This document shows positions 7,705-27,390 of a stretch of DNA of 34,123 bases, one piece after another (within the stretch, counting starts at the first letter, position 1; every line of letters starts with the position of its first letter). Under the pieces are notes generated by a model. That model saw only the letters and a program-made list of their open reading frames with translations, was not told the DNA's origin and ran no database searches. The stretch covers positions 1 through 34,123 of the forward strand of contig JAENWA010000099.1 of NCBI GenBank assembly GCA_016650295.1, written 5' to 3'. The translations under genes and the position numbers were made by a program. Source of the stretch: Desulfuromonadales bacterium (lineage in GTDB: Bacteria > Desulfobacterota > Desulfuromonadia > Geobacterales > Pseudopelobacteraceae).

Positions 7705-7983
7705 CTAGCAATCAAGGCGGTTATGGACAATTTCGTACGCCTCCCTGCGATGGCAAATCGCATATACGAACACCTCACTCCCCTGAATTCCGAATACAAC
7801 CCGGTAGTCGCCCACCCGCAGTTTCCAGTATCCATTCAGCGTGGCGCGGAGCGGTTTTCCATACAGAGCGGGTTCGCTCGCCAACCGCTCCTTCAGGACA
7901 GTTTTAATCCTGTCCTTCATGGTTCCGGAGAGTCGCGATACATCGTGTGCCACTTCCGGGTGAAAGAGGATGGTGTAGCTCAT
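7705..7983 (-). CDS. RelE/ParE-family toxin
   Basis: 92 residues, the usual length for the family. The sequence SYTILFHPEVAHDVSRL, then a helix-rich middle, then GYWKLRVGDYRVVFGIQGSEVFVYAICHRREAYE, matches the RelE/ParE fold, including the WKLRVGDYRV strand and the C-terminal basic HRRE segment used by ribosome-dependent RelE-type RNases. Its ATG overlaps the antitoxin stop by four bases (ATGA), so the two genes are translationally coupled in antitoxin-toxin order. It should cleave mRNA (RelE-like) or poison gyrase (ParE-like). The sequence alone does not decide between them. Confidence 0.85.
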   Translation of the reverse strand: MSYTILFHPEVAHDVSRLSGTMKDRIKTVLKERLASEPALYGKPLRATLNGYWKLRVGDYRVVFGIQGSEVFVYAICHRREAYEIVHNRLDC

Positions 7984-8210
7984 TCACCAAAAACCTGATC
8001 CAGGGAGAGAGCCGTTGTGCGGTCAAAGGTTTCTGCACGTGAATCGGCCAAGGCAGTCAGCGCACGATCCTCGCGCAGTTCCAGCGCCTCCTTGATGAGG
8101 TCGTGGGCCACGGAAGAAAGAGAAGCTCCCTCCGACGCGGCGATGCTGCTTAATTCAAAGTACAATGGCTGTTCGCAGACCACATTGATGCGGGGATTTT
8201 TAGTCGGCAT
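7980..8210 (-). CDS. Ribbon-helix-helix-type antitoxin of the RelE/ParE pair
   Basis: 76 residues. The ATG at 8208-8210 has GAGGTGA five bases upstream; an earlier in-frame start has none. The N-terminal strand NPRINVVCEQPLYFELSSIAASEGASLSSVAHDLIKEAL has the pattern of a ribbon-helix-helix DNA-binding domain (strand, helix, turn, helix). The acidic C-terminal tail (RAETFDRTTALSLDQVFGE) is the likely toxin-wrapping segment. The protein should neutralise the adjacent toxin and repress its own promoter. Confidence 0.8.
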   Translation of the reverse strand: MPTKNPRINVVCEQPLYFELSSIAASEGASLSSVAHDLIKEALELREDRALTALADSRAETFDRTTALSLDQVFGE

Positions 8211-8278
8211 GATGTCACCTCTGCATAGAGTGTCGCATAAGTGAGGCACTTGGTCAATGCTGAAGAAACAGTAAGTAA

Positions 8279-8366: not shown

Positions 8367-8807
8367 TTATATGGAATGCAGTTCCAGAAATTTCTGAGGG
8401 GTTAACACAGAGATTTCTCCGACACTCCTGAAATCGGCGTCGAAGGTGATCAGGAAGGAACAACGGCTCTCAATGGCTGTGGACATAATGATCGCGTCAG
8501 CGATGGCCAGTCGATTGGCTTTTTTCAGGGCGGCAGTACGCAGAACCCAGTCAGTACGGAATTCGGCGATGGAGAAGAGCGGGAGAGATTCTATTGAGCT
8601 GATTACTCGTTCTGCCTCTGAATAATGATCGGCGGCAGTGAGAATGGCGGCAAGTTCCAGGAGGGTGATGGTGGCGACAACGGACTTGATGCGGCGGGTA
8701 AAAAGAAGTTGGAAAAAGGCGGTACAGCTTTCGACTTTGTCCGGCTCGTCATTGAAAAATCCGAGCAGTACATTGGTGTCGATGCAAACGGTCACTGATC
8801 GCGCCAT
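8367..8807 (-). CDS. PIN-domain toxin (VapC-like)
   Basis: 146 residues. The N-terminal VTVCIDTNVLLGF carries the first catalytic Asp (D10 when counted from the ATG). TLLELAAIL supplies the conserved Glu, LAIADAIIMSTA the second Asp, and FLITFDADF the last acidic residues, together forming the Mg2+ site of a PIN ribonuclease. VapC-type toxins cut tRNA or rRNA. The ATG at 8805-8807 overlaps the antitoxin gene by 16 bases. A GTG four codons later (8793-8795) overlaps the antitoxin stop in a GTGA and is an equally plausible start. Confidence 0.85.
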   Translation of the reverse strand: MARSVTVCIDTNVLLGFFNDEPDKVESCTAFFQLLFTRRIKSVVATITLLELAAILTAADHYSEAERVISSIESLPLFSIAEFRTDWVLRTAALKKANRLAIADAIIMSTAIESRCSFLITFDADFRSVGEISVLTPQKFLELHSI

Positions 8808-9028
8808 TCGCTGCGGATCTTTTTCTGCATTTCAACCGAGTCTGTTCCAGCAAGACCATGGCTGATGCCGCGTAGGGCAAGAAAACCCATTTCCGCATCA
8901 GTCAGCTGATTCCGCTTCGTTTTTGTCTTAGGCAGCAGGAGCTTAACCTCGGTGTGTTCCGGCAGATTGACTGGTATGCAGGGCACGAATACACCATGTT
9001 CATAGGTGGCGGAAATAGTCTGTGGCAT
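8792..9028 (-). CDS. DUF104/AF2212-like antitoxin of the PIN pair
   Basis: 78 residues. The ATG at 9026-9028 with GAGGAT upstream is preferred to an earlier in-frame start without a ribosome site. The N-terminus ISATYEHGVFVPCIPVNLPEHTEVKLLLP is the diagnostic motif of the AF2212/PG0164-type antitoxins (ATYENGVFxPLxPVxLPEGTEV), known from Archaea and bacteria beside PIN toxins. The C-terminal part is charged and probably binds the toxin. It precedes and overlaps the PIN gene, the usual antitoxin-first order. Confidence 0.85.
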   Translation of the reverse strand: MPQTISATYEHGVFVPCIPVNLPEHTEVKLLLPKTKTKRNQLTDAEMGFLALRGISHGLAGTDSVEMQKKIRSEWRDQ

Positions 9029-9176
9029 TATCGAAATCCTCACTTTTGATGAAGTGACTATAACACAGAGAGTAGTGTGAGGCAAGTTTCGTTGCCGGGA
9101 ATGTCGCATTCCCGGTTGATCAATACCAATAAATATTATATGGTAATATTATGACGTCGTCGCTGGAGGTTATATC

Positions 9177-14458: not shown

Positions 14459-16117
14459 TTAAGCTGTCAGCCCGGCGTCTTCCAGGGCCAGTTCCTTGAT
14501 CGCCATATCCCGCATCTTGAACTTTTGGATCTTGCCCGAGGCGGTCATGGGGAAGGAATCCACGAACTTGACGTACTTGGGAATCTTGTAGTTGGCGATC
14601 TTTTCCCGGCAGAATTCCCTGACCTCGTCCTCGCTCATCTCCAGCCCTTTTTTCAGGATGATGGAGGCCATGACCTGCTCGCCGTACTTCCGGTCCGGCA
14701 CGCCGTAGACCTGGATGTCGGAGATCTTGGGATGGGTATAGAGGAACTCCTCGATCTCGCGGGGATAGATGTTTTCGCCGCCGCGTATGATCATGTTCTT
14801 GATGCGGCCGGTGATCTTGCAGTAGCCGTTCTCATCCATGATGGCCAGGTCGCCGGTATGCAGCCACTGCTTGCTGTCGATGGCCTTGGCGGTCTCGTCG
14901 GGCATCTTGTAGTAGCCCTTCATGACCAGGTAGCCGCGGGTGCAGAGTTCGCCCTGTTTGCCGGGGGGCAGCGTGGCCCCTGTTTCGATATCGACGATCT
15001 TGACCTCCACGTCCGGCAGGGCACGGCCGACCGTGGCGACGCGCAGTTCGATGGCGTCATCGGTGCGGGTCTGGGTGATGACCGGCGAGGATTCGGTCTG
15101 GCCGTAGGCGATGGTGATCTCGCCGGCATTCATCTGGCTGATAACCTTTTTCATGACCTCGATCGGGCAGTTGGAGCCGGCCATGATGCCGGTGCGCAGG
15201 GAGGAAAGGTCGAATCTGCCGAACTCGGGGTGCTCCAGTTCGGCGATGAACATGGTCGGGACGCCGTGGACCGCGGTGCATTTCTCCGCCTCGATGGTCT
15301 GCAGCACCTTGAGCGGATCGAAGATCTCCACCGGCACCATGGTGGTGGCGTGGGTTACGCAGGCCATGACCCCCAGGACGCAGCCGAAACAGTGGAAGAA
15401 AGGCACCGGGATGCAGAGCCGGTCCTTTTCGGTCAGCTTCATGCACTCGCCGATGTTGAAGCCGTTGTTGACCACGTTGTAGTGGGTCAGCATGACCCCC
15501 TTGGGGAAGCCGGTGGTACCGGAGGTGTACTGCATGTTGATGGTCTCGTGGCAGTTGAGGGTGGCCTCGACCGCTGCCAGTCCGGCATCGCTGACCTCGC
15601 TTCCCAACTCCATGATGCGGCTGAAGTTGAGCATGCCGGCGGGGGTCCCGTCGCCGATGAATATGACGTTCCTCAGGTGCGGCAGACTGGGGCTGTTCAG
15701 ACTGCCGGCCCGGCTTGCCGCCAGCTCGGGAATCACATCGTTGGCTGTCTGGACATAATCCGAGTCCTTGAAGGATTTGACCATGAACAACGTATTCGAG
15801 TCGGACTGGTTGAGGATGTATTCCAGTTCGGCCGATTTGTAGCTGGTGTTGATCGTGACCAGAATCGCGCCGATCTTGGCGGTGGCAAACTGCAGGATTA
15901 CCCATTCCGGGACGTTGTAGGCCCAGATGGCCAGGTTGTCTCCCTTCTTGATTCCCAGACGCAGCAGCCCTTTGGCAACCGTACGGCAGACCTCGTTGAA
16001 TTCGCGGTAGGAATAACGCAGCCCCCGCTCCGGGTAGACCAGCGCGTCATTGTCCGGAAAACGCTCCGCCATCTGGTCCAGCAGGCCACCTACGGTTACA
16101 TCAAGCTGTCGTGACAT
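14459..16117 (-). CDS. Acyl-CoA synthetase (AMP-binding)
   Basis: 552 residues. AAGGATG lies just before the ATG. The P-loop motif YTSGTTGFPKG is at residues 197-207, the adenylate motif YGQTESSP follows in the middle, TGDLAIMDENGYCKITGRIKNMIIRGGENIYP contains the hinge and A8 motif, and the C-terminal PMTASGKIQKF carries the catalytic Lys (K529). It belongs to the medium-chain/branched-chain acyl-CoA synthetase branch that forms acyl-adenylate and then acyl-CoA. As last gene of the isovaleryl-CoA operon it most likely activates isovalerate or a related short branched acid. Acetoacetate activation is an alternative, since the HMG-CoA lyase upstream produces acetoacetate. The chain-length preference is not readable here. 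Confidence 0.88.
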   Translation of the reverse strand: MSRQLDVTVGGLLDQMAERFPDNDALVYPERGLRYSYREFNEVCRTVAKGLLRLGIKKGDNLAIWAYNVPEWVILQFATAKIGAILVTINTSYKSAELEYILNQSDSNTLFMVKSFKDSDYVQTANDVIPELAASRAGSLNSPSLPHLRNVIFIGDGTPAGMLNFSRIMELGSEVSDAGLAAVEATLNCHETINMQYTSGTTGFPKGVMLTHYNVVNNGFNIGECMKLTEKDRLCIPVPFFHCFGCVLGVMACVTHATTMVPVEIFDPLKVLQTIEAEKCTAVHGVPTMFIAELEHPEFGRFDLSSLRTGIMAGSNCPIEVMKKVISQMNAGEITIAYGQTESSPVITQTRTDDAIELRVATVGRALPDVEVKIVDIETGATLPPGKQGELCTRGYLVMKGYYKMPDETAKAIDSKQWLHTGDLAIMDENGYCKITGRIKNMIIRGGENIYPREIEEFLYTHPKISDIQVYGVPDRKYGEQVMASIILKKGLEMSEDEVREFCREKIANYKIPKYVKFVDSFPMTASGKIQKFKMRDMAIKELALEDAGLTA

Positions 16118-16184: not shown

Positions 16185-16222
16185 CCTTCAGACCAGTCAG
16201 ACAAGTCAGACTGGTCTGAAGG
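16185..16222. repeat. Palindrome with GTCTGACT units at the HMG-CoA lyase 3' end
   Basis: A perfect 13-bp inverted repeat (16185-16197 with 16210-16222) surrounds CAGACAAGTCAG. On the minus strand it contains two or three 9-base units of the form GTCTGACTT/G. The element overlaps the last codons and stop (16206-16208) of the HMG-CoA lyase gene. A related element lies at 19994-20030 in the same operon. Confidence 0.8.
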
Positions 16223-17123
16223 CCAGTGCCGCCCCACGGGCGCGGGCAACCTTTGAGTCGGACGGGCGTCCCAGGATCCCGGAGATGAAATTGCCGGTCT
16301 CGATCAGCCGGTCTAGGTCTACACCGGTTTCTATCCCAAGTCCATTCAACATGTAAAGAAGATCTTCACTGGCCACGTTTCCGGATGCTCCGGCGGCGTA
16401 AGGGCAGCCACCCAGACCTGCCACCGAACTGTCAATGACCGAGATGCCCCGCTCCAGGACCGCCAGGATATTTGCCAGGGCCTGGCCGTAGGTATCGTGG
16501 AAATGGACCGCGATCAACTCGCGCGGCATCTTGTCAGCCACCGCATCCACCACGGCCTGGGCCCGGCCCGGTGTCCCGACGCCGATGGTGTCCCCCAGGA
16601 AGATCTCGTAACAGCCCAGTTCCAGCATGCGGGCCGCCACCTTGGCGACGGCGGCCGGCGCCACCTCGCCTTCGTAGGGGCAGCCCAAGGCGCAGGAAAC
16701 CGCTCCGCGCACCTTGACCCCTTTTTTTTTGGCGGCCTCGATGACCGTGGCAAAGCGCTCCAGGCTTTCGGCGATGGAACAGTTGATGTTTTTCCGCGAA
16801 AAGGTTTCCGAAGCGGCTCCGAAGACGGCCACCTCTTCCGCACCGGCCGCCATGGCCGCCTCGAATCCCTGCAGGTTCGGCACCAGGACCGGGTAACTGA
16901 CTCCGTCCCGGCGCTGAATGCCCGCCATGACCTGGGCATTGTCGGCCATCTGCGGCATCCATGTGGGAGAGACAAAGCTGGTGGCCTCGATGGCCTGCAG
17001 CCCGCAGGCGGTCAGGCGATTGATCAGCTCGATCTTGACGTCGGTCGGGACGATCAGGCGCTCTTTCTGCAGGCCGTCGCGCGGGCCGACCTCGACAATC
17101 TTGACCTGTTTCGGCAGTCTCAT
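16206..17123 (-). CDS. mvaB: Hydroxymethylglutaryl-CoA lyase
   Basis: 305 residues, the usual length. It cleaves HMG-CoA to acetyl-CoA and acetoacetate, the last step of leucine catabolism. [10 protein letters not shown] holds the Arg/Asp active-site pair (R15, D16), HFHDTYGQA (207-215) the metal-binding His residues, and [11 protein letters not shown] the signature with catalytic Cys240. The TIM-barrel sequence is complete. Its ATG overlaps the stop of the biotin-carboxylase subunit gene by four bases (ATGA), so translation is coupled. Its own 3' end lies in the palindrome at 16185-16222. Confidence 0.95.
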
Positions 17124-19129
17124 ACCGTTTCCCCGTCTGCGGCAAAGGACAGCAGTTCCGTTCCTTCATTGACCACCGCACCCACGGCAAAATGGATCTC
17201 CGCCACCACGCCGTCACGCGGGGCGCTGATGGTGTGCTCCATCTTCATGGCCTCCATGATGACCAGCGGGGTGCCCCGTTCCACGGCTGTTCCGGGTGTC
17301 ACCAGCAGCGCCACGATCTTGCCCGGCATGGGTGCTGTCAGGCGTCCTCCGGCCACCTCCTGCTCTCCGGCATCGGCCAGGGGATCGTGCAGGGTCAGGC
17401 GGTGGCTGCTGCCGTGTGAGATGACCGTCAGGTCGTTGCCGTGCCACACAATGCTGGCTGTGATCCGCATGCCGCCCAGATCTGCCAGCAGGTCGCCGTC
17501 GTTGTCGAGCCGGCCGCTCACCAGCATCCGGCAGTCAGGGAGTTCCAGCAGGTAGCCTTCCGGCCGGTAGTGGGCCGTGACGCAGACCGCCGTTTCTCCG
17601 TCCTGCAGGGTCAGTACATGGTGGTTGTCGCAGTTCAGCTGCCAGCCGGTGGTCTGGTGCCAGGGGGACCAGCGGTCGCTGGAGGCGGCTGCCGCGCTTT
17701 CCGCCTCGGCCGACCGGCGCAGAAGCACATACAGGGCGGCCAGGGCCACTGTCCGGGCCGGGGCCGGCTCTGTTTCCGGGAAGAGGGCCGTGCTGTGCCG
17801 CTCGATGAAACCGGTGTCGAAATCGCCGGCAGCAAAGGCCGGATGCGCAGCCACCGCAGCCAGGAACTCTACGTTGGTGGTGACGCCGACCACCTGGTAT
17901 TCGGCCAGGGCCGCGCGCAGGCGACGCAGGGCGCCGTCACGGGTGGCATCCCAGACAATCAGCTTGGCGATCATCGGGTCGTAGTTGATGCTGACGCTGT
18001 CGCCCTGGCGGACGCCGGTGTCGATCCTGACATGGGCGCTTTCCGGCGGGGTGCGCAGGTGGGTCAGGGTGCCGGTGGATGGCAGGAAATCCCGTGCAGG
18101 GTCCTCGGCATAGATGCGGGCCTCGATGGCATGTCCGTCGATGGCCAGCTGATCCTGTCCGCAGGGAAGCGTTTCGCCGGAGGCTACGCCCAGCTGCCAG
18201 CGGACCAGATCCTGGCCGGTGATCATCTCGGTTACCGGATGCTCCACCTGCAGCCTTGTGTTCATCTCCATGAAATAGAAGGAACCGTCCTCATCCAGCA
18301 GGAACTCGACCGTGCCGGCCCCGACATAACCGATGGCGCGGGCGGCCGCCACCGCCGCTGCCCCCATCCGTGAGCGGAGCTCTCCATCCATTCCGGGCGC
18401 AGGCGCTTCCTCCAGCACCTTCTGGTGACGGCGCTGGATCGAGCAGTCGCGCTCGAACAGGTGCAGCGCATTGCCGTGAAAATCGGCAAAGACCTGGATC
18501 TCCATATGGCGCGGCCGGGTCAGGTATTTTTCCAGCAGGACCCGCTCGTCCCCGAAGCCGGAGAGCGCCTCCCGCCTGGCCGCGGCCAGCAAGGCGCCGA
18601 ATGAGGCCGAATCCCGGACCACCCGCATCCCCTTGCCGCCGCCGCCGGCCGTAGCCTTGATCAGGACCGGATAGCCGATCCGGTCGGCGCTGTCCTGCAG
18701 CATGCCCGGGTCCTGATCCTCGCCATGGTAGCCGGGCACCAGCGGCACCCCGGCCTCCTCCATGATCCGCTTGGCCGCGCTCTTGGAGCCCATGGCCCGG
18801 ATGGCCCCGGCCGGTGGACCGATAAAGACCAGCCCGGCCCCGTCGCAGGCCTCGGCAAAATCGGCATTCTCGGAAAGAAAGCCGTAACCGGGGTGAATCG
18901 CCTGTGCGCCGCTTTGGCGGGCAACATCCAGGATCAGTTCCGGTCGCAGGTAGCTCTCGCGGGCCGGAGCCGGGCCGATATGATAGGCCTCGTCGGCCAG
19001 CGCCACATGCAGGGCATCGGCGTCGGCATCGGAATAGACCGCCACCGTGCGGATGCCCATCTGCCTGGCGGTGCGGATGATGCGGCAGGCGATCTCGCCG
19101 CGATTGGCTATCAGGATTTTATCGAACAT
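17120..19129 (-). CDS. mccA: Methylcrotonyl-CoA carboxylase biotin-containing (alpha) subunit
   Basis: 669 residues: biotin carboxylase (about 1-445), a linker, and a C-terminal biotinyl domain. The N-terminus [20 protein letters not shown] is standard. The ATP-grasp glycine loop is [10 protein letters not shown] (161-170), and [19 protein letters not shown] is the Mg-ATP/active-site block. The biotin site is [10 protein letters not shown] with Lys629. Length and layout fit MCC, propionyl-CoA or geranyl-CoA carboxylase alpha subunits. The surrounding genes decide for MCC. It carboxylates biotin with bicarbonate and ATP and delivers it to the beta subunit encoded two genes upstream. The ATG has GAGGAAGG upstream. 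Confidence 0.93.
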
Positions 19130-19174: not shown

Positions 19175-19969
19175 TTACGGTTTTACCCATCCCGGCGTGC
19201 GCTTCTCCAGAAAGGCCGAGACCCCTTCCCGCCCTTCGGCCGAGGCGCGCTGATTCGCTATCCGCGCGGCGGTGTCGCTGATCAGTTCCGGCCCGACCGG
19301 TCTGCCGGAGACCACTGCTATGAGCTGTTTGGCCCCGGCCATGGAGGCCGGTCCGTTCTTCAACAGCGTTTTCGCCAGGTCCTGTCCCCGCGACTGAAGG
19401 GCAGCATCGTCCTCCACCACTTCGTGCAGCAGCCCGAGCCGTTGAGCCTTCGCACAGTCAAACACCTCCGCCGACAGGAAATAGCGCCGGCAGGCCCGGG
19501 CGCCGATGGCAGCGATCACATAGGGGGAAATCACCGCCGGGAACAGTCCCAGTTTGACCTCGGACAGGCAGAAAGAGGCCCGGCGGGTGGCGATGGCCAT
19601 GTCGCAGCAGGCTACCAGGCCGACACCGCCACCGTAGGCGGCCCCCTGCACTAAGGCGATGGTCGGCTTGGCGAGACCATTGAGGGTCTGCATCAGTTCG
19701 GCCAGACCCAGGGCGTCACGCAGATTCTCCTCCCTGGTGTAGTCGGCCATTCTGCGCATCCAGTTGAGATCGGCCCCGGCCGAAAAGCTCTTGCCGCTGC
19801 CGGTCAGCAGCACTACCCGGACACGTTCGTCCGACGCCAGGTTTTTTAATTCCGCGGTCAGGTCCGCGATCAGGAGATCGTCGAAGGCATTATGCACCTC
19901 CGGCCGGTTCATGGTCAGGGTGGCAATGCCTTGGTTGTCGATCTGGGTCAGGATGGTAGGTTCGCTCAT
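19175..19969 (-). CDS. liuC: Enoyl-CoA hydratase, probably methylglutaconyl-CoA hydratase
   Basis: 264 residues of the crotonase family. GKSFSAGADLNWMRRM forms the first oxyanion-hole strand, ALVQGAAYGGGVGLVACCDMAIA the second, and FCLSEVKLGLFPAVISPYV carries the family catalytic Glu region. The SAGADLNWM pattern is typical of 3-methylglutaconyl-CoA hydratases in leucine pathways. Its place between the two MCC subunit genes supports hydration of 3-methylglutaconyl-CoA to HMG-CoA. AAGGAAA precedes the ATG. The 68-base gap upstream holds a palindromic element. Confidence 0.9.
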   Translation of the reverse strand: MSEPTILTQIDNQGIATLTMNRPEVHNAFDDLLIADLTAELKNLASDERVRVVLLTGSGKSFSAGADLNWMRRMADYTREENLRDALGLAELMQTLNGLAKPTIALVQGAAYGGGVGLVACCDMAIATRRASFCLSEVKLGLFPAVISPYVIAAIGARACRRYFLSAEVFDCAKAQRLGLLHEVVEDDAALQSRGQDLAKTLLKNGPASMAGAKQLIAVVSGRPVGPELISDTAARIANQRASAEGREGVSAFLEKRTPGWVKP

Positions 19970-20037: not shown

Positions 20038-21645
<1,608 letters not shown>

Positions 21646-21669: not shown

Positions 21670-22839
21670 TTAGGGCGCGGTCTCGTTGAACAGCTCCCGG
21701 CCGATCAGCATGCGGCGGATCTCGCTGGTCCCGGCGCCGATCTCGTAGAGTTTGGCGTCACGCAGCAGCCGTCCGGCGGGATACTCGTTGATATACCCGT
21801 TTCCGCCCAGGATCTGGATCGCCTCCAGCGCCATCCAGGTGGCTTTTTCAGCGGCATACAGTATCGCCCCGGCGGCATCCTTGCGGATCGCGTTCCTGCC
21901 GCTGCAGGCGTGGGCCACTGCGTAGACGTAAGCCCGGCAGGCATTCATGGTGCTGTACATGTCGGCCAGTTTGCCCTGCATCAACTGAAATTCGCCGATA
22001 GCCTTGCCGAACTGCCGGCGCTCGTGGATATAGGGAATGACCACGTCCAGGCAGGCCCGCATGATGCCCAGCGGACCGGCGGCAAGCACGGCCCGTTCGT
22101 AGTCCAGGCCGCTCATCAGGATCCTGACCCCTTCACCGACCTGGCCGACCACATTTTCAGCCGGCACCTCGCACTCCTCGAAGACCAGTTCACAGGTGTC
22201 CGAACCGCGCATGCCGAGTTTGTCCAGTTTCTGGGCCGTGGAGTAACCCTTGAACCCCTTCTCGATCAGGAAGGCGGTGATCCCCTTGGAACCGGCATTG
22301 ATGTCGGTCTTGGCATACACCAGCAGGGTATCGGCGTGGGGGCCGTTGGTGATCCACATCTTGGTGCCGTTGAGGATGTAGCGGTCCCCCTTCCGATCGG
22401 CCCGCAGCCGCATGCTGACCACATCCGAGCCGGCTCCGGCCTCGCTCATGGCCAGGGCGCCGACATGTTCGCCGCTGATCAGTTTCGGCAGGTAGTGCCT
22501 CTTCTGCGCCTCGCTTGCGTTACGATAAATCTGGTTGATGCAGAGGTTGGAGTGGGCGCCGTAGGCCAGGGCAACCGCAGCCGAGGCGCGGCTGAGCTCC
22601 TCCATGGCCACCACGTGCTCCAGGTAGGTCATGCCGGCGCCGCCGTACTCTTCGGAGACGGTGATGCCGTGCAGTCCCAGGTCACCCATCTTGCGCCAGA
22701 GGTCCATGGGAAAGTGGTTGTCGCGGTCGATATCCGCCGCACGCGGGGCGATTTCATCCGCGGCAAAGGACGCAACCGTGTCCCTCAGAAGGTCTGCCGT
22801 TTCGCCCAGATCAAAGTTAAGTGTCGGATAAGACCGCAT
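21670..22839 (-). CDS. ivd: Isovaleryl-CoA dehydrogenase
   Basis: 389 residues, matching the family. It oxidises isovaleryl-CoA to 3-methylcrotonyl-CoA with [24 protein letters not shown] and [19 protein letters not shown] are acyl-CoA dehydrogenase signatures. [16 protein letters not shown] places the catalytic Glu at residue 248, the helix-G position characteristic of isovaleryl-CoA dehydrogenases; most other acyl-CoA dehydrogenases carry it near residue 370. [42 protein letters not shown] closes the domain. The ATG at 22837-22839 has AGGGGG upstream; an earlier in-frame start lacks one. Electrons should go to electron-transfer flavoprotein, which is not encoded in the window. Confidence 0.95.
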
Positions 22840-22861
22840 AATATATACCCCCTGTCCCGCC

Positions 22862-23737
22862 TCAATCGGCACTAAAAGCCGGAAATGTATTCAGGCCGGC
22901 TGAGGTTCCGACCATCTTGTAAATACTGACTTCATCCCAGGGCTCATCCAGGATCTTATCAACGGTCAGATCATCCCAGGGCTCGTCCAGTATGCCGTCA
23001 TGGATTGCCCAGCTCCTGCCATGAACCGTCCGGTCGGCGCCGGGCATGCGGAACGGCGAAGATCCATCCAGCCTGCCGAAGAGTACGCCGACCGGACGGA
23101 ATTCCCGGTTGATCTCCTCCATCATGCGTCTGCCATTCAGGTAATCGAAGCCGTATTTTTCATAACGGATGGCATTGTCATAGGTCAGCGGTTCGGCCAT
23201 GATCATATCCATACCGAGGGAGTCCACAAAACATTCAAAACGGGAAAAGAATTCCGGAAACATCCGGAGACCTCGGCTGGTCTGGATCGGAAAGAGCCCG
23301 GCCCGCATGGCCCGGATCTCTTCCGGAATATTGCGCCCAAGGGTGGTAAAGCAGTTGTCGTGGCCCGCTTCGTCGATATCGACACGAAAGCGGGGTGCAG
23401 AGGGATCATTGATGATGCAGAAGGAAAGCTCCATCTGCCGAAAGTGTGTATCGGCGATATCAAGAAAAAAGACCGTCTGGTGATCGTCCGGGTCGTTTTT
23501 GACTTCAATCCGCGCCAGCCCCATCCCCTGCGGCGCAATGATGGTGACCCTGCGACGCCCGTCCGCACCACGGAACGTTACCGGCGAGACCTCCAGCAGT
23601 GTAAAGATGCGGGCCGGGATGATGCTCGTGTAGATGCGTTCTTTCTCGGCTGCCGCCAGCTCATTAATCTCGCTGAGAGACGATAGCCGGCAGCCCTGTT
23701 CCGAGATCAGCGACTCATTTCCGGGTAAATGGCTCAT
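22862..23737 (-). CDS. Unrecognised 291-residue protein of the leucine operon
   Basis: The protein has no signal peptide or membrane segment and should be cytoplasmic. No family is recognised with confidence. The part around residues 195-225 ([19 protein letters not shown], then [15 protein letters not shown]) resembles the fold end of GNAT acyltransferases (…A..YEK.GF.Y…), so an acyl-CoA-using role is possible. Near the C-terminus [11 protein letters not shown] is followed by [11 protein letters not shown], a short direct repeat (first ILDEPWD at about residue 251). The start codon lies nine bases after the original icmF stop and has no good ribosome site, suggesting translational coupling to icmF. 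That coupling is now broken by the icmF frameshifts. It precedes ivd by 22 bases and is surely in the same operon. Confidence 0.8.
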
Positions 23738-23746
23738 TCATCAAGT

Positions 23747-24412
23747 CTACATATTTCTTCGGTATTGTCCACCAACCTCATACAGAGCATGGCTGATCTG
23801 ACCCAGCGAGGCGAATTTGACCGTTTCCATCAAACTCGGCAAAGATATTGCCGCCGGCCACAGCCACCTCCTGCAGTCGTTTCAGGGCCTGGGGGGCTGT
23901 TTCGCGGTTCTGTTCCTGGAAGGCGCGCAGGTTGGCGATCTGCTGTTCCTTCTCCTCAGTGGTGGCCCGGGCCAGTTCTCCGGGGACATTGAAACCCTCT
24001 TCATCGGCGCGGGGATTGAGGAAGGTGTTGACCCCGATGATCGGCAGCTCGCCGGAATGTTTTTTATGTTCGTAGAGCATGGATTCGTCCTGGATTCTGG
24101 AGCGCTGGTACTGGGTCTCCATGGCGCCCAGCACACCGCCGCGCTGGTCGATGCGTTCGAACTCGCACAGCACGGCCTCCTCCACCAGATCGGTCAACTC
24201 CTCGATGATGAAGGAACCCTGGCTCGGTTTTCGTTCCTGGTCAGGCCGAACTCCCTGGTGATGTGTCCGAGATGAATGACTTCGGCACCCGAGACCTGCA
24301 GGATGCGGCGAATGACATTGATCGTTGCATCGTGCCCGTCGAACAGGCTTGTGGCGGTTACAAAGCGTACTTTATGGTGCGTTTTGTAAACCTCGCCGGC
24401 AACACTCGACAT
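23747..24412 (-). pseudogene. icmF: Decayed icmF (isobutyryl/pivalyl-CoA mutase, fused type)
   Basis: The ATG at 24410-24412 has a perfect AGGAGG. The first ~45 residues contain the B12-binding start [19 protein letters not shown] and [10 protein letters not shown] of IcmF. The sequence then jumps directly to the extreme C-terminal part of the mutase: [10 protein letters not shown], a frameshift near 24230, [50 protein letters not shown] and AGGNIFAE. An extra T near 23828 causes a second frameshift, after which [18 protein letters not shown] and QYRRNM complete the natural C-terminus at the TAG 23747-23749. An intact IcmF is about 1,080-1,100 residues, so roughly 2.6 kb, including the G-protein chaperone domain and most of the catalytic barrel, is missing. 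The remnant cannot be functional. Confidence 0.9.
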
Positions 24413-24447
24413 GACGGAACCTCCTGAGAAGTTAATTGTCAGACTTG

Positions 24448-24476
24448 GTTTTATCCGCAGCTTACGTTTATGTCAA
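24448..24476 (-). promoter_or_regulatory. Promoter of the leucine degradation operon
   Basis: On the minus strand a perfect TTGACA (24471-24476) and TAAAAC (24448-24453, 4/6) are separated by 17 bases. The start site would fall near 24440, leaving a ~28-base leader with AGGAGG before the icmF start. Confidence 0.6.
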
Positions 24477-24477
24477 G
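24461..24477. promoter_or_regulatory. Candidate MerR-family (LiuR-like) operator at the leucine promoter
   Basis: CTTACGTTTATGTCAAG overlaps the -35 box and spacer of the leucine promoter. ACGT-centred sites of this look are reported for LiuR, the MerR-family regulator of branched-chain amino acid breakdown in other proteobacteria (recalled, not checked). A related CTTTACGTCAACG occurs at 24617-24629 nearer to the regulator gene. The dyad symmetry is imperfect. Confidence 0.35.
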
Positions 24478-24740
24478 CGCTATTAAAACATATTTTTACT
24501 ATGCGCAAATTTTGTTTGATATTTGTTTTAAATCTGATTATAGTCGCAACCATAAGGCTGGCACATGATGTCCGGCAATCCGGAAAAACAACCCGCTGCA
24601 GATGTACCGTCAGATGCTTTACGTCAACGCCATCGTTCACATAACTACCTTTATTAAAAGAACAGATAAAAAAATTACGCAGCAGAAAACCATCGGCAGT
24701 CTGACCCTCGATAGAACAGATTGCCGGTTTTTTCGGGCCG
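24477..24740. other. Divergent intergenic region without a gene
   Basis: Together with the two flanking promoters this spans about 400 bases between icmF and the MerR-family gene. It is AT-rich on both sides and has a more mixed centre. Apart from the promoters and the two ACGT-type sites, nothing coding or structured stands out. Small frames here have no ribosome site. Confidence 0.6.
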
Positions 24741-24770
24741 TTTCAAATTCATATAACTTTGTTTTATACA
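24741..24770 (+). promoter_or_regulatory. Candidate promoter of the MerR-family gene
   Basis: TTTCAA (24741-24746) and TATACA (24765-24770, 4/6) are separated by 18 bases in an AT-rich stretch about 45 bases before the start codon. The slightly long spacer would suit autoregulation by a MerR-type protein. Confidence 0.4.
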
Positions 24771-24813
24771 TAAAGATAGCCAATTACCAACCTGATCCAA
24801 CCAGGAGAGCCGT

Positions 24814-25221
24814 ATGTCGAATGACAACAACGAAGAAGAGTATATTCCGATCGGTGAACTCGCCCGAACCATTGGCGTGACGACCAGAACCCTGCGCTAT
24901 TACGAAGAAGTCGGCATTATGGAGCCACCCCATCGCCTCGACGGTGGCAGCCGGGCCTATACGGCCAGCGGCGTGCGCAAGCTCAAATTTATCCTGCGAT
25001 TGAAGGAGATGGGGCTGAGCATCAAAGAGATGCAGGAGCTGAATGCCGCCTATTCCGAGGCCAAGCAGACCACCAAGATCATTCCGCGCCTGATAGAAAT
25101 GCTCGACTGTCACATCAACAATCTGGACGAGAAGATGTCGAAACTTGCCGTGCTGCGCAAGGAGATCGTGGATTACCGTCAACGTATGATCGAGCGTTTC
25201 CAGTTGCCTCCGACGCAGTGA
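24814..25221 (+). CDS. MerR-family transcriptional regulator (LiuR-like candidate)
   Basis: 135 residues. AGGAG lies eight bases before the ATG. Residues ~10-80 form the MerR winged helix: YIPIGELARTIGVTTRTLRYYEEVGIM, then RAYTASGVRKLKFILRLKEMGLSIKEMQEL. A long dimerisation helix follows (LIEMLDCHINNLDEKMSKLAVLRKEIVDYRQRM). There is no cysteine cluster for metal sensing, and the effector region is very short, as in LiuR/fatty-acid-type MerR proteins. It is divergent from the leucine operon with a shared 400-base control region, so regulation of that operon is the likely role. This is inference from position and family. Confidence 0.88.
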   Translation: MSNDNNEEEYIPIGELARTIGVTTRTLRYYEEVGIMEPPHRLDGGSRAYTASGVRKLKFILRLKEMGLSIKEMQELNAAYSEAKQTTKIIPRLIEMLDCHINNLDEKMSKLAVLRKEIVDYRQRMIERFQLPPTQ

Positions 25222-25292
25222 CGGATTGTTCCCGTTGGTCAGGAAGATCTGCCTCGTCTATATAGGTTGTACCGGTTTTGAAGGAGAATTCT

Positions 25293-26111
25293 ATGGCTCT
25301 CAAAGACATTCTGCTCCACATAGACAATACCCCGAGTTTCCCCAACAGGCTCGACCTGGCGATCAGTCTGGCGCGTCTGCATGGCGCCCATCTCAAGGGT
25401 CTGTATGTGGTCACCCACCCCTATTACACCCCCGATCATTCTGCCGGTGACGTCGAAATGGTCAGACGGATCGAGGCATTGTTCAAGGAAAAGGTTGCCC
25501 TGGCCGGCATATCGGGTGAGTGGCTCTATGTGGATTGGTCCGTGGTGGGCGTCGGTGTCACGGAGGTTATCAATCGGTATGCCTATTTTACCGATCTGGT
25601 GATCATCGGGCAGCCAAATCACGATTCTCCGGACCGGGATACCCCCAAAGACTTGCCAGAACGACTCGGACTGGGGGCCGGCCGACCTTTGCTGGTGGTG
25701 CCCTATGCCGGGACCTTCAACACAATCGGTGAGAGGGTCATGATTGCCTGGAAATCCGGACGCGAGGCAACACGTTCCGCCAGTGATGCGCTGCCGATCC
25801 TTGAGAAAGCCAAACATGTAAGTGTCGTAACCATCAGCCCGGCCGGAAATTTCGACAGCAATGAAATTGAGGACGCCCGCAAGATCTGTTCTCACCTGGC
25901 GCATCACGGTATTAATGCTACCCATGATCAGGTTCTGGCGAGTTTCAATCTGTCCATTGGCGACATGCTGCTCAACCATGCCTGCGAGCAGAGGATGGAT
26001 TTGCTCGTCATGGGGGCCTATGCCCAGTCCCGGCGCGGGGGTTACATGCACAGTCCGGTAGCCAGGCACTTGATGAACTTTATGACGGTGCCGATGCTGG
26101 TTTCGCATTAG
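25293..26111 (+). CDS. Universal stress protein, two tandem domains
   Basis: 272 residues. The ATG has AAGGAG six bases upstream; an in-frame TTG 15 bases earlier lies within the ribosome site. Residues 1-145 (MALKDILLHIDNTPSFPNRLD, TDLVIIGQPNH, RPLLVVPYAG) and 150-272 (ERVMIAWKSGREATRSASDALP, DLLVMGAYAQSRRGG, FMTVPMLVSH) are two USP folds in tandem, as in UspE. The final GAYAQSRRGG segment is the degenerate form of the GxxGxxxxxxxxxG ATP loop. It lies 71 bases downstream of the MerR-family gene on the same strand and may share its transcript. Its role in leucine use is not clear. Confidence 0.88.
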   Translation: MALKDILLHIDNTPSFPNRLDLAISLARLHGAHLKGLYVVTHPYYTPDHSAGDVEMVRRIEALFKEKVALAGISGEWLYVDWSVVGVGVTEVINRYAYFTDLVIIGQPNHDSPDRDTPKDLPERLGLGAGRPLLVVPYAGTFNTIGERVMIAWKSGREATRSASDALPILEKAKHVSVVTISPAGNFDSNEIEDARKICSHLAHHGINATHDQVLASFNLSIGDMLLNHACEQRMDLLVMGAYAQSRRGGYMHSPVARHLMNFMTVPMLVSH

Positions 26112-26590: not shown

Positions 26591-26962
26591 TTACGACATG
26601 GAAGCGGACTCTTCGGCGGGATTGTCATAAGTGCACCCATCTCGCGAGACAAGAACAAAGCGGGAGCCATCCCTGGTCCAGGGATGTTCCATCTTCAAGA
26701 TGCCGTGACAGGTGCATTTCATCTGCGGTACGCTGGCATGCAGGTAGGTTTGATAGCTGAAAAAATCAGTGTGATGCCATGTCTCATCCATTGCATCACA
26801 CACTTCCACGGTTTTCCCGCAGGTGGGACAAATAACGTTGTGATCCTGGTCAAAGCAAATCGTAATATCCAGGCGCTTTTCATCCTTGGAAAATAGTATG
26901 GTAGAAATTTCCCATGGATGATAAAGACCAAGTGTTGCGGAAAAAAATGTCTTCTGATCCAT
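26591..26962 (-). pseudogene. ISL3-family transposase, N-terminal fragment
   Basis: An ATG at 26960-26962 with AAGGAAAC upstream starts MDQKTFFSATLGLYHPWEI. The segment ITICFDQDHNVICPTCGK has a zinc-finger Cys pair, and HHTDFFSYQTYLHASVPQ followed by KCTCHG is the conserved N-terminal DNA-binding region of ISL3 transposases. Recognisable similarity stops near GSRFVL (base ~26640), and the frame ends at 26591. About 300 residues containing the DDE catalytic domain are missing, so this is a dead remnant. IS ends could not be placed. Confidence 0.8.
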
Positions 26963-27390
26963 TTGGTTTCCTTGTGTGCGCTTGATATCCATGCAATAGA
27001 TGCTGCGTTTCACCCAGCAAACCCGCAAGGGGGTGGCCTTATATTTGCAAACGGAATATTTAGTTCGACTCAGGTTTTGCTATTACCGTGCCAGCTCGTA
27101 CAAACGGCGCCATGAGTGGATTTGCCGGTTCCGTAATCCGAACCGGGTGGCTCCTGCACCGTCCAACCATTGTCAGGAAATGTACACTTCAGGCCTTGGT
27201 AAAAGCCGGATAACCGCTCTGTTGGCGACTTTGCAGGCCTGGTCCGAAATTGTACAGGGTGCAAATAATTGTGCACCCGTTTTATGTAGTAATCGATATA
27301 CGCAGCCGGCTTGTCGCTTAACGTTCCATGATAGTTCAGTAAAATACTGTTCGGGAATGAACAGCAAGCCATGACGTAAAGAGCGGAAGT
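26963..27390. other. Stretch without a supported gene
   Basis: It separates the ISL3 fragment from the histidine kinase promoter. A minus-strand frame of about 100 codons (27070-27372) has no ribosome site and no recognisable motif. The area probably holds further debris of mobile DNA, but nothing can be identified. Confidence 0.5.

Follow-up and report, generated by a model that had tools for sequence, protein, structure and literature searches.

A disrupted icmF reading frame at the head of a leucine-degradation operon in a Desulfuromonadales bacterium

In the bacterium studied here, the genes for leucine breakdown follow a start codon of icmF, behind which only the two ends of that gene can be recognised. 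Is this what is left of a gene that the organism has lost, an error of assembly, or a remnant that still serves the operon that it heads? The window (the whole stretch of DNA analysed, 34,123 nucleotides) is the complete contig C99 of a draft assembly, which comprises 4.07 Mb in 123 contigs and is 99.1% complete. Our analysis indicates that the remnant is very probably a very recent pseudogene, and ordinary gene decay is the most likely origin of such a pseudogene.

Structure of the icmF remnant

Both ends of icmF were recognised by NF045497, the NCBIfam model of IcmF. Positions 1-38 of the model were matched by residues 13-50 of a 71-aa reading (24412-24200; 65.5 bits, E 2.2e-18), and positions 928-1049 by the 139-aa ORF listed in Table 1 (183.6 bits, E 4.6e-54). 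These two partial matches remain far below the family cut-off of 1500 bits, whereas the intact IcmF of a relative, G017, scored 1916.5 bits. When G017 IcmF was used as a query against the genome, three pieces were found on the contig, at 24415-24260 (71% identity), 24233-23832 (82%) and 23845-23750 (81%). The N-terminal piece matched 17 of the 20 relatives' loci searched, with 66-93% identity over 42-50 residues, and the C-terminal piece was 79-91% identical to all 20 loci. The two points that are joined here lie 860-863 residues apart in all 16 full-length relatives compared. Together with the NF045497 matches, this confirmed a previous proposal, made from a sequence-only reading of the window, that two ends of icmF are joined with ~2.6 kb gone. 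That reading had put the retained ends at ~45 and ~150 residues; both ends are indeed present, but they measure ~50 residues at the start and ~171 at the end.

At the junction, the icmF start is fused in frame to ITREFGL..., and one base is lost ~36 bases later. The joined ends share ~2 bp, as read from relatives and not from the lost DNA. Repeats detected in 22800-25300 do not flank the junction, and we rejected a repeat-mediated deletion on this basis and on that of the ~2 bp shared there, the lost DNA itself being unseen. A frameshift had been expected near 24230 and an extra T near 23828; we placed the former at 24226-24227 and the latter in the TTT run 23834-23832 of the minus strand. Both sit in short single-base runs. 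Because they are opposite in sign, the last ~30 residues are back in the original frame.

The remnant does not hold a complete N-terminal B12-binding domain: ~50 residues are left, in a piece without a Pfam match, and a PF02310 profile search of the genome returned 20 matches, none of them on C99. The central MeaB-like GTPase domain is absent from the remnant, PF03308 matching only C93 and, below cut-off, C31. The C-terminal mutase barrel is incomplete, with only positions 366-487 of the 512 of PF01642 matched. A working mutase cannot come from this remnant. It is like IcmF in that both of its ends align to the family model and in its position at the head of the liu operon, as in G017, but it differs from IcmF in its two frameshifts and in that 860-863 residues, the GTPase domain among them, are gone.

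Table 1. Coordinates of the icmF remnant, its start signals and the neighbouring genes
Feature	Position	Strand	Basis or remark
Divergent MerR-family regulator (LiuR-like)	24814..25221	plus	profile match
TTGACATAAACGTAA, candidate operator of the MerR-type regulator	24462..24476	minus	enriched upstream of relatives' icmF
AGGAGG ribosome-binding site of icmF	24420..24425	minus	direct reading
icmF remnant	24412-23747	minus	both gene ends, ~2.6 kb middle gone, two frameshifts
Surviving icmF start, 50 residues, beginning of B12-binding domain	24263..24412	minus	original frame; NF045497
72-residue ORF that opens at the icmF start codon	24194..24412	minus	stop and the TTG of the 139-aa ORF overlap as TTGA
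Deletion junction	24262..24263	minus	860-863 residues (~2.6 kb) absent, joined in frame
First frameshift, one base fewer than relatives	24226..24227	minus	frames aligned with relatives
Surviving icmF end, shifted frame	23835..24225	minus	PF01642 and NF045497 matches
Mechanical ORF, 139 aa, TTG start	24197-23778	minus	overlaps the shifted-frame icmF end
Second frameshift, one base more than relatives	23832..23834	minus	inside TTT run
Last icmF residues and stop, original frame again	23747..23831	minus	G017 IcmF match; stop at 23749-23747
orfX, conserved protein	22862..23737	minus	begins 9 bases past the icmF stop
liuA, isovaleryl-CoA dehydrogenase type acyl-CoA dehydrogenase	21670..22872	minus	profile match; substrate inferred from operon
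liuB, methylcrotonyl-CoA carboxylase carboxyltransferase subunit	20038..21645	minus	profile match; name from operon context
liuC, methylglutaconyl-CoA hydratase type enzyme	19175..19969	minus	profile match; name from operon context
liuD, biotin carboxylase/carrier subunit	17120..19129	minus	profile match; name from operon context
liuE, hydroxymethylglutaryl-CoA lyase	16206..17123	minus	NF004283, 462.3 bits (cut-off 246)
Acyl-CoA ligase after liuE	14459..16117	minus	profile match and relatives

The operon behind the remnant and its start signals

The gene order liuA-B-C-D-E, with a MerR-family regulator nearby, identifies a liu (leucine/isovalerate utilisation) operon. Thus, the remnant does head a leucine-degradation operon, as had been proposed, with the ligase gene at its far end. 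All genes downstream of the remnant in this operon are open frames, and liuB showed purifying selection (pN/pS 0.114-0.196) in six of six comparisons of the own copy with relatives. The claim that the operon is still under selection was therefore borne out for liuB. The liuA gene is 92% identical to the G017 copy. Homologues of the LiuR-like regulator, 52-65% identical to it, lie close to icmF in 5 of 20 relatives' loci. No Pfam or NCBIfam match to orfX was found at E 0.001. This gene is present in 115 of the 141 genomes of the order, this one counted, and precedes liuA in six of the seven fetched relatives' stretches that hold liuA.

Upstream of the remnant, the ATG start codon and the AGGAGG are in place. 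Of 16 relatives, which are not independent of each other, 8 carry a TTGACATAAACGTAA-like site (<=2 mismatches) in the 400 bases ahead of icmF. The background was 57/960 in random 400-base stretches of the same loci, which may include upstream regions, and 2/960 in shuffled ones; the pattern itself was shaped with the window in view. This site is a putative LiuR operator. TTGACA occurs at 24476-24471, and no pair in a consensus promoter scan uses it there. On the same strand upstream of icmF, the scan gave one site, 24564-24537 (10/12 bases), and in the whole region three sites, as compared to 1.1 in shuffles. Of the earlier statement that promoter, AGGAGG and start codon are intact, the last two parts hold, but the promoter was supported only partly. 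A search of 22800-25300 for RNA elements in the leader gave no Rfam match at gathering thresholds.

Several other features of the window were recorded. The end of orfX contains a 39-base direct repeat (74% alike; 22914-22991) that doubles an ILDEPWD stretch. The orfX and liuA ORFs overlap at 22862-22872; G017 has a crotonase-type gene between them (L194 9503-10928), and the gap varies elsewhere. A second deletion in the liu operon, between orfX and liuA, is possible. About 1.4 kb beyond the MerR gene lies an ISL3-type transposase fragment (26594-27028; zinc ribbon, PF14690, 31.1 bits). It is a mobile-element remnant, and the window is thus not free of broken material. Two neighbouring toxin-antitoxin-like pairs occupy 7705-8249 and 8367-9109, one consisting of a ParE-type protein (PF05016) and a weak ribbon-helix-helix match below cut-off, the other of a PIN protein (PF01850) and an AF2212-like protein (PF01954). 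At 3-434 lies the end of a protein in which long PTPxP repeats, cut by the contig edge, precede a CSGCH haem-binding-like motif.

icmF elsewhere in the genome and in relatives

A search for a second intact icmF and a comparison with close relatives had been suggested as checks on the sequence-only reading, and both were carried out. Profile searches and searches with G017 IcmF found neither a second icmF nor the missing middle in the assembly beyond paralogues. PF01642 matched in two places only, the remnant and a 554-aa frame on contig C21. The C21 protein scored as a methylmalonyl-CoA mutase large subunit (TIGR00641, 804 bits) and fell short of full IcmF, with 351 bits where the cut-off is 1500. 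It has RQYAG where G017 IcmF has RQFAG, a difference at the residue that separates the two substrates. Two further proteins complete the separate mutase system, the small subunit (134 aa, C69) and a GTPase of the MeaB type (C93). At E 1e-5, the whole G017 IcmF matched nothing in the genome besides these paralogues and the three pieces of the remnant.

The search with the C-terminal piece covered 57 genomes, this one included. In the same genus, the icmF frames of G001 (1089 aa) and G002 (1090 aa) are open; in G003, this search found only a 34%-identical paralogue. Of the order's 141 genomes, 72 gave an IcmF match at E <= 1e-100, and 27, this one included, gave a liuB match at E <= 1e-150. All 26 other liuB-bearing genomes have icmF, and 46 of the 114 genomes without liuB have an IcmF match, although the genomes are related and neither count is one of independent cases. 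Within the 26, icmF is in two pieces on separate contigs in G104 and G035, and G058 shows only its last 671 residues; five of the 46 (G066, G075, G080, G088 and G091) have only a distant match of 41-48% identity. The icmF of G025 (L058) is split into two overlapping frames of 755 and 491 aa, so that this copy is either broken as well or wrongly assembled.

In 7 of the 26 genomes (G009, G017, G048, G081, G087, G125 and G131), icmF and liuB lie on one contig less than 20 kb apart. Gene order was viewed in 20 stretches fetched around orfX or liuA, and among the seven of these that hold liuA, icmF stands directly ahead of orfX and liuA only in G017. There, the order is icmF-orfX-ech-liuA-B-C-D-E-ligase, the crotonase-type gene between orfX and liuA being extra as compared to this genome. 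Judged from gene order, this arrangement is the intact form of the one seen here. The comparison with relatives has thus found icmF intact in G001 and G002 and at the head of the operon in G017.

The liu operon itself is unevenly distributed in the genus: G002 holds both liuB and icmF, and G001 and G003 gave no liuB match at E 1e-150. The liuA and liuB genes of this genome (G000) are nearer to those of G009 and G017, which belong to other genera (liuA 92-93%, liuB 89-90%), than to those of the same-genus G002 (82% and 83%, respectively). This pattern suggests transfer or patchy loss of the operon.

Age of the loss, rival explanations and metabolic meaning

The frame of icmF is disrupted here and relatives hold an intact orthologue, as is found for a pseudogene. 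We compared the codons of the two pieces, each in its own frame, with those of distinct relatives (C-terminal piece, 121 codons, 46 relatives; N-terminal piece, 48 codons, 40 relatives). Integrity of the whole gene was checked in 16 of these relatives, the others being judged by the piece only and one (L058) coming from the split gene described above. The C-terminal piece had a median pN/pS of 0.154, as compared to 0.183 in 1028 relative pairs (rank 42nd of 47, 1 being the highest), and the N-terminal piece 0.212, as compared to 0.229 in 773 pairs (rank 26th of 41); reference values were taken from relative pairs with pS above 0.3. Not one change was seen at 73 invariant columns, 53 in the C-terminal and 20 in the N-terminal piece. 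Relaxed constraint in the remnant was thus found neither by pN/pS nor at invariant columns. Since pN/pS was not raised and no invariant residue had changed, icmF appears to have been under normal constraint until recently. The absence of invariant-residue changes places a 95% bound of ~8 substitutions in 507 bases on neutral divergence, supposing that ~0.32 of random substitutions alter an invariant residue and assuming a non-synonymous fraction of 0.70-0.78.

On these comparisons, the loss of icmF looks very recent. A new pseudogene need not show relaxed constraint, and its lack is a result against a long-standing pseudogene. The remnant resembles bacterial pseudogenes that arise by deletion and frameshifts, as generally known, in its broken frame, in the intact orthologues of relatives and in that no second copy was found; it differs from them in that no relaxed constraint is visible yet and in that it heads an operon of functional-looking genes. 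The locus had also been said to give a view of decay at the head of an operon, a claim that is weak, since no measurable drift accompanies the lesions as yet.

Three lesions without neutral drift make a tight combination, one that recency allows and that an assembly or strain-mixture error would produce as well. If such an artefact were responsible, the organism would have an intact icmF and the contig would be a wrong join with base errors. The lack of relaxed constraint, the draft state of the assembly and the position of both frameshifts in short one-base runs are all consistent with this. However, the missing middle was not found in an assembly that is nearly complete, and a junction that shares only ~2 bp, as judged from relatives, makes repeat collapse unlikely. 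In addition, all 16 other window genes, whose listed ORF lengths add up to 24.3 kb, have open frames, although openness was the criterion by which these ORFs were picked. Beside them, a pair of indel errors within 0.65 kb would be unusual. The window genes compared with relatives were the liu genes, ligase, orfX, liuR and Usp; the liu genes, ligase and orfX match relatives over nearly their full length. We therefore regard an artefact as unlikely.

Still less probable, in our view, is that the remnant has been kept for translation of the operon, with ribosomes covering the leader and preventing premature termination. The stop of the 72-aa ORF and the TTG start of the 139-aa ORF overlap as TTGA, and the 139-aa ORF itself ends ~40 bases before orfX. 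Given the 9-base spacing between the icmF stop and orfX, here as well as in G017, orfX was probably coupled to icmF. However, the TTGA and the GAGGAG that precedes it stem from codons of conserved residues (EELT), which needs no selection, and the GAGGAG directly abuts the TTG, a poor spacing. That the remnant encodes a working small protein is scarcely credible. The amino acids of both pieces are conserved, but recency accounts for this; two breaks interrupt the frame, the 72-aa product contains no more than the initial ~50 residues of a protein with a B12-binding domain, and the 139-aa frame has no well-spaced start site.

A recent pseudogene would have arisen as follows. An intact icmF presumably stood first in the ancestral liu operon, a place that it has kept in G017. 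A single ~2.6 kb deletion between sequences almost without shared ends would have taken out the GTPase domain entirely, together with the greater part of both the B12-binding domain and the mutase barrel. Two single-base indels would also have struck the parts that remain. The start region of the operon stays and presumably continues to drive transcription of the liu genes behind it.

The leucine route consists of isovaleryl-CoA dehydrogenase, methylcrotonyl-CoA carboxylase, the hydratase and HMG-CoA lyase. IcmF catalyses a side reaction that lies outside the degradation of leucine via HMG-CoA, and its loss therefore leaves the liu pathway unbroken. The sequence-only reading had spoken of a loss from an otherwise complete pathway, wording that implies a leucine step and that does not stand. 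The cell would lose the interconversion of isobutyryl- and n-butyryl-CoA and of isovaleryl- and pivalyl-CoA by IcmF, and would keep leucine breakdown and the separate methylmalonyl-CoA mutase with MeaB. No report of this icmF loss was seen in PMC10481361, PMC2700814 or PMC2996986, as far as these were consulted. It is conceivable, if quite improbable, that the loss still varies between strains and that the split remnant serves the operon as a leader, translated through the 72-aa ORF, TTGA and 139-aa ORF, from which ribosomes stay on the transcript as far as the liu genes; if so, the locus would be a snapshot of an operon surviving the death of its first gene. As a recent pseudogene, the remnant means that a full leucine-breakdown operon can be kept without IcmF, though all 26 other liuB-bearing genomes of the 141 examined have both.
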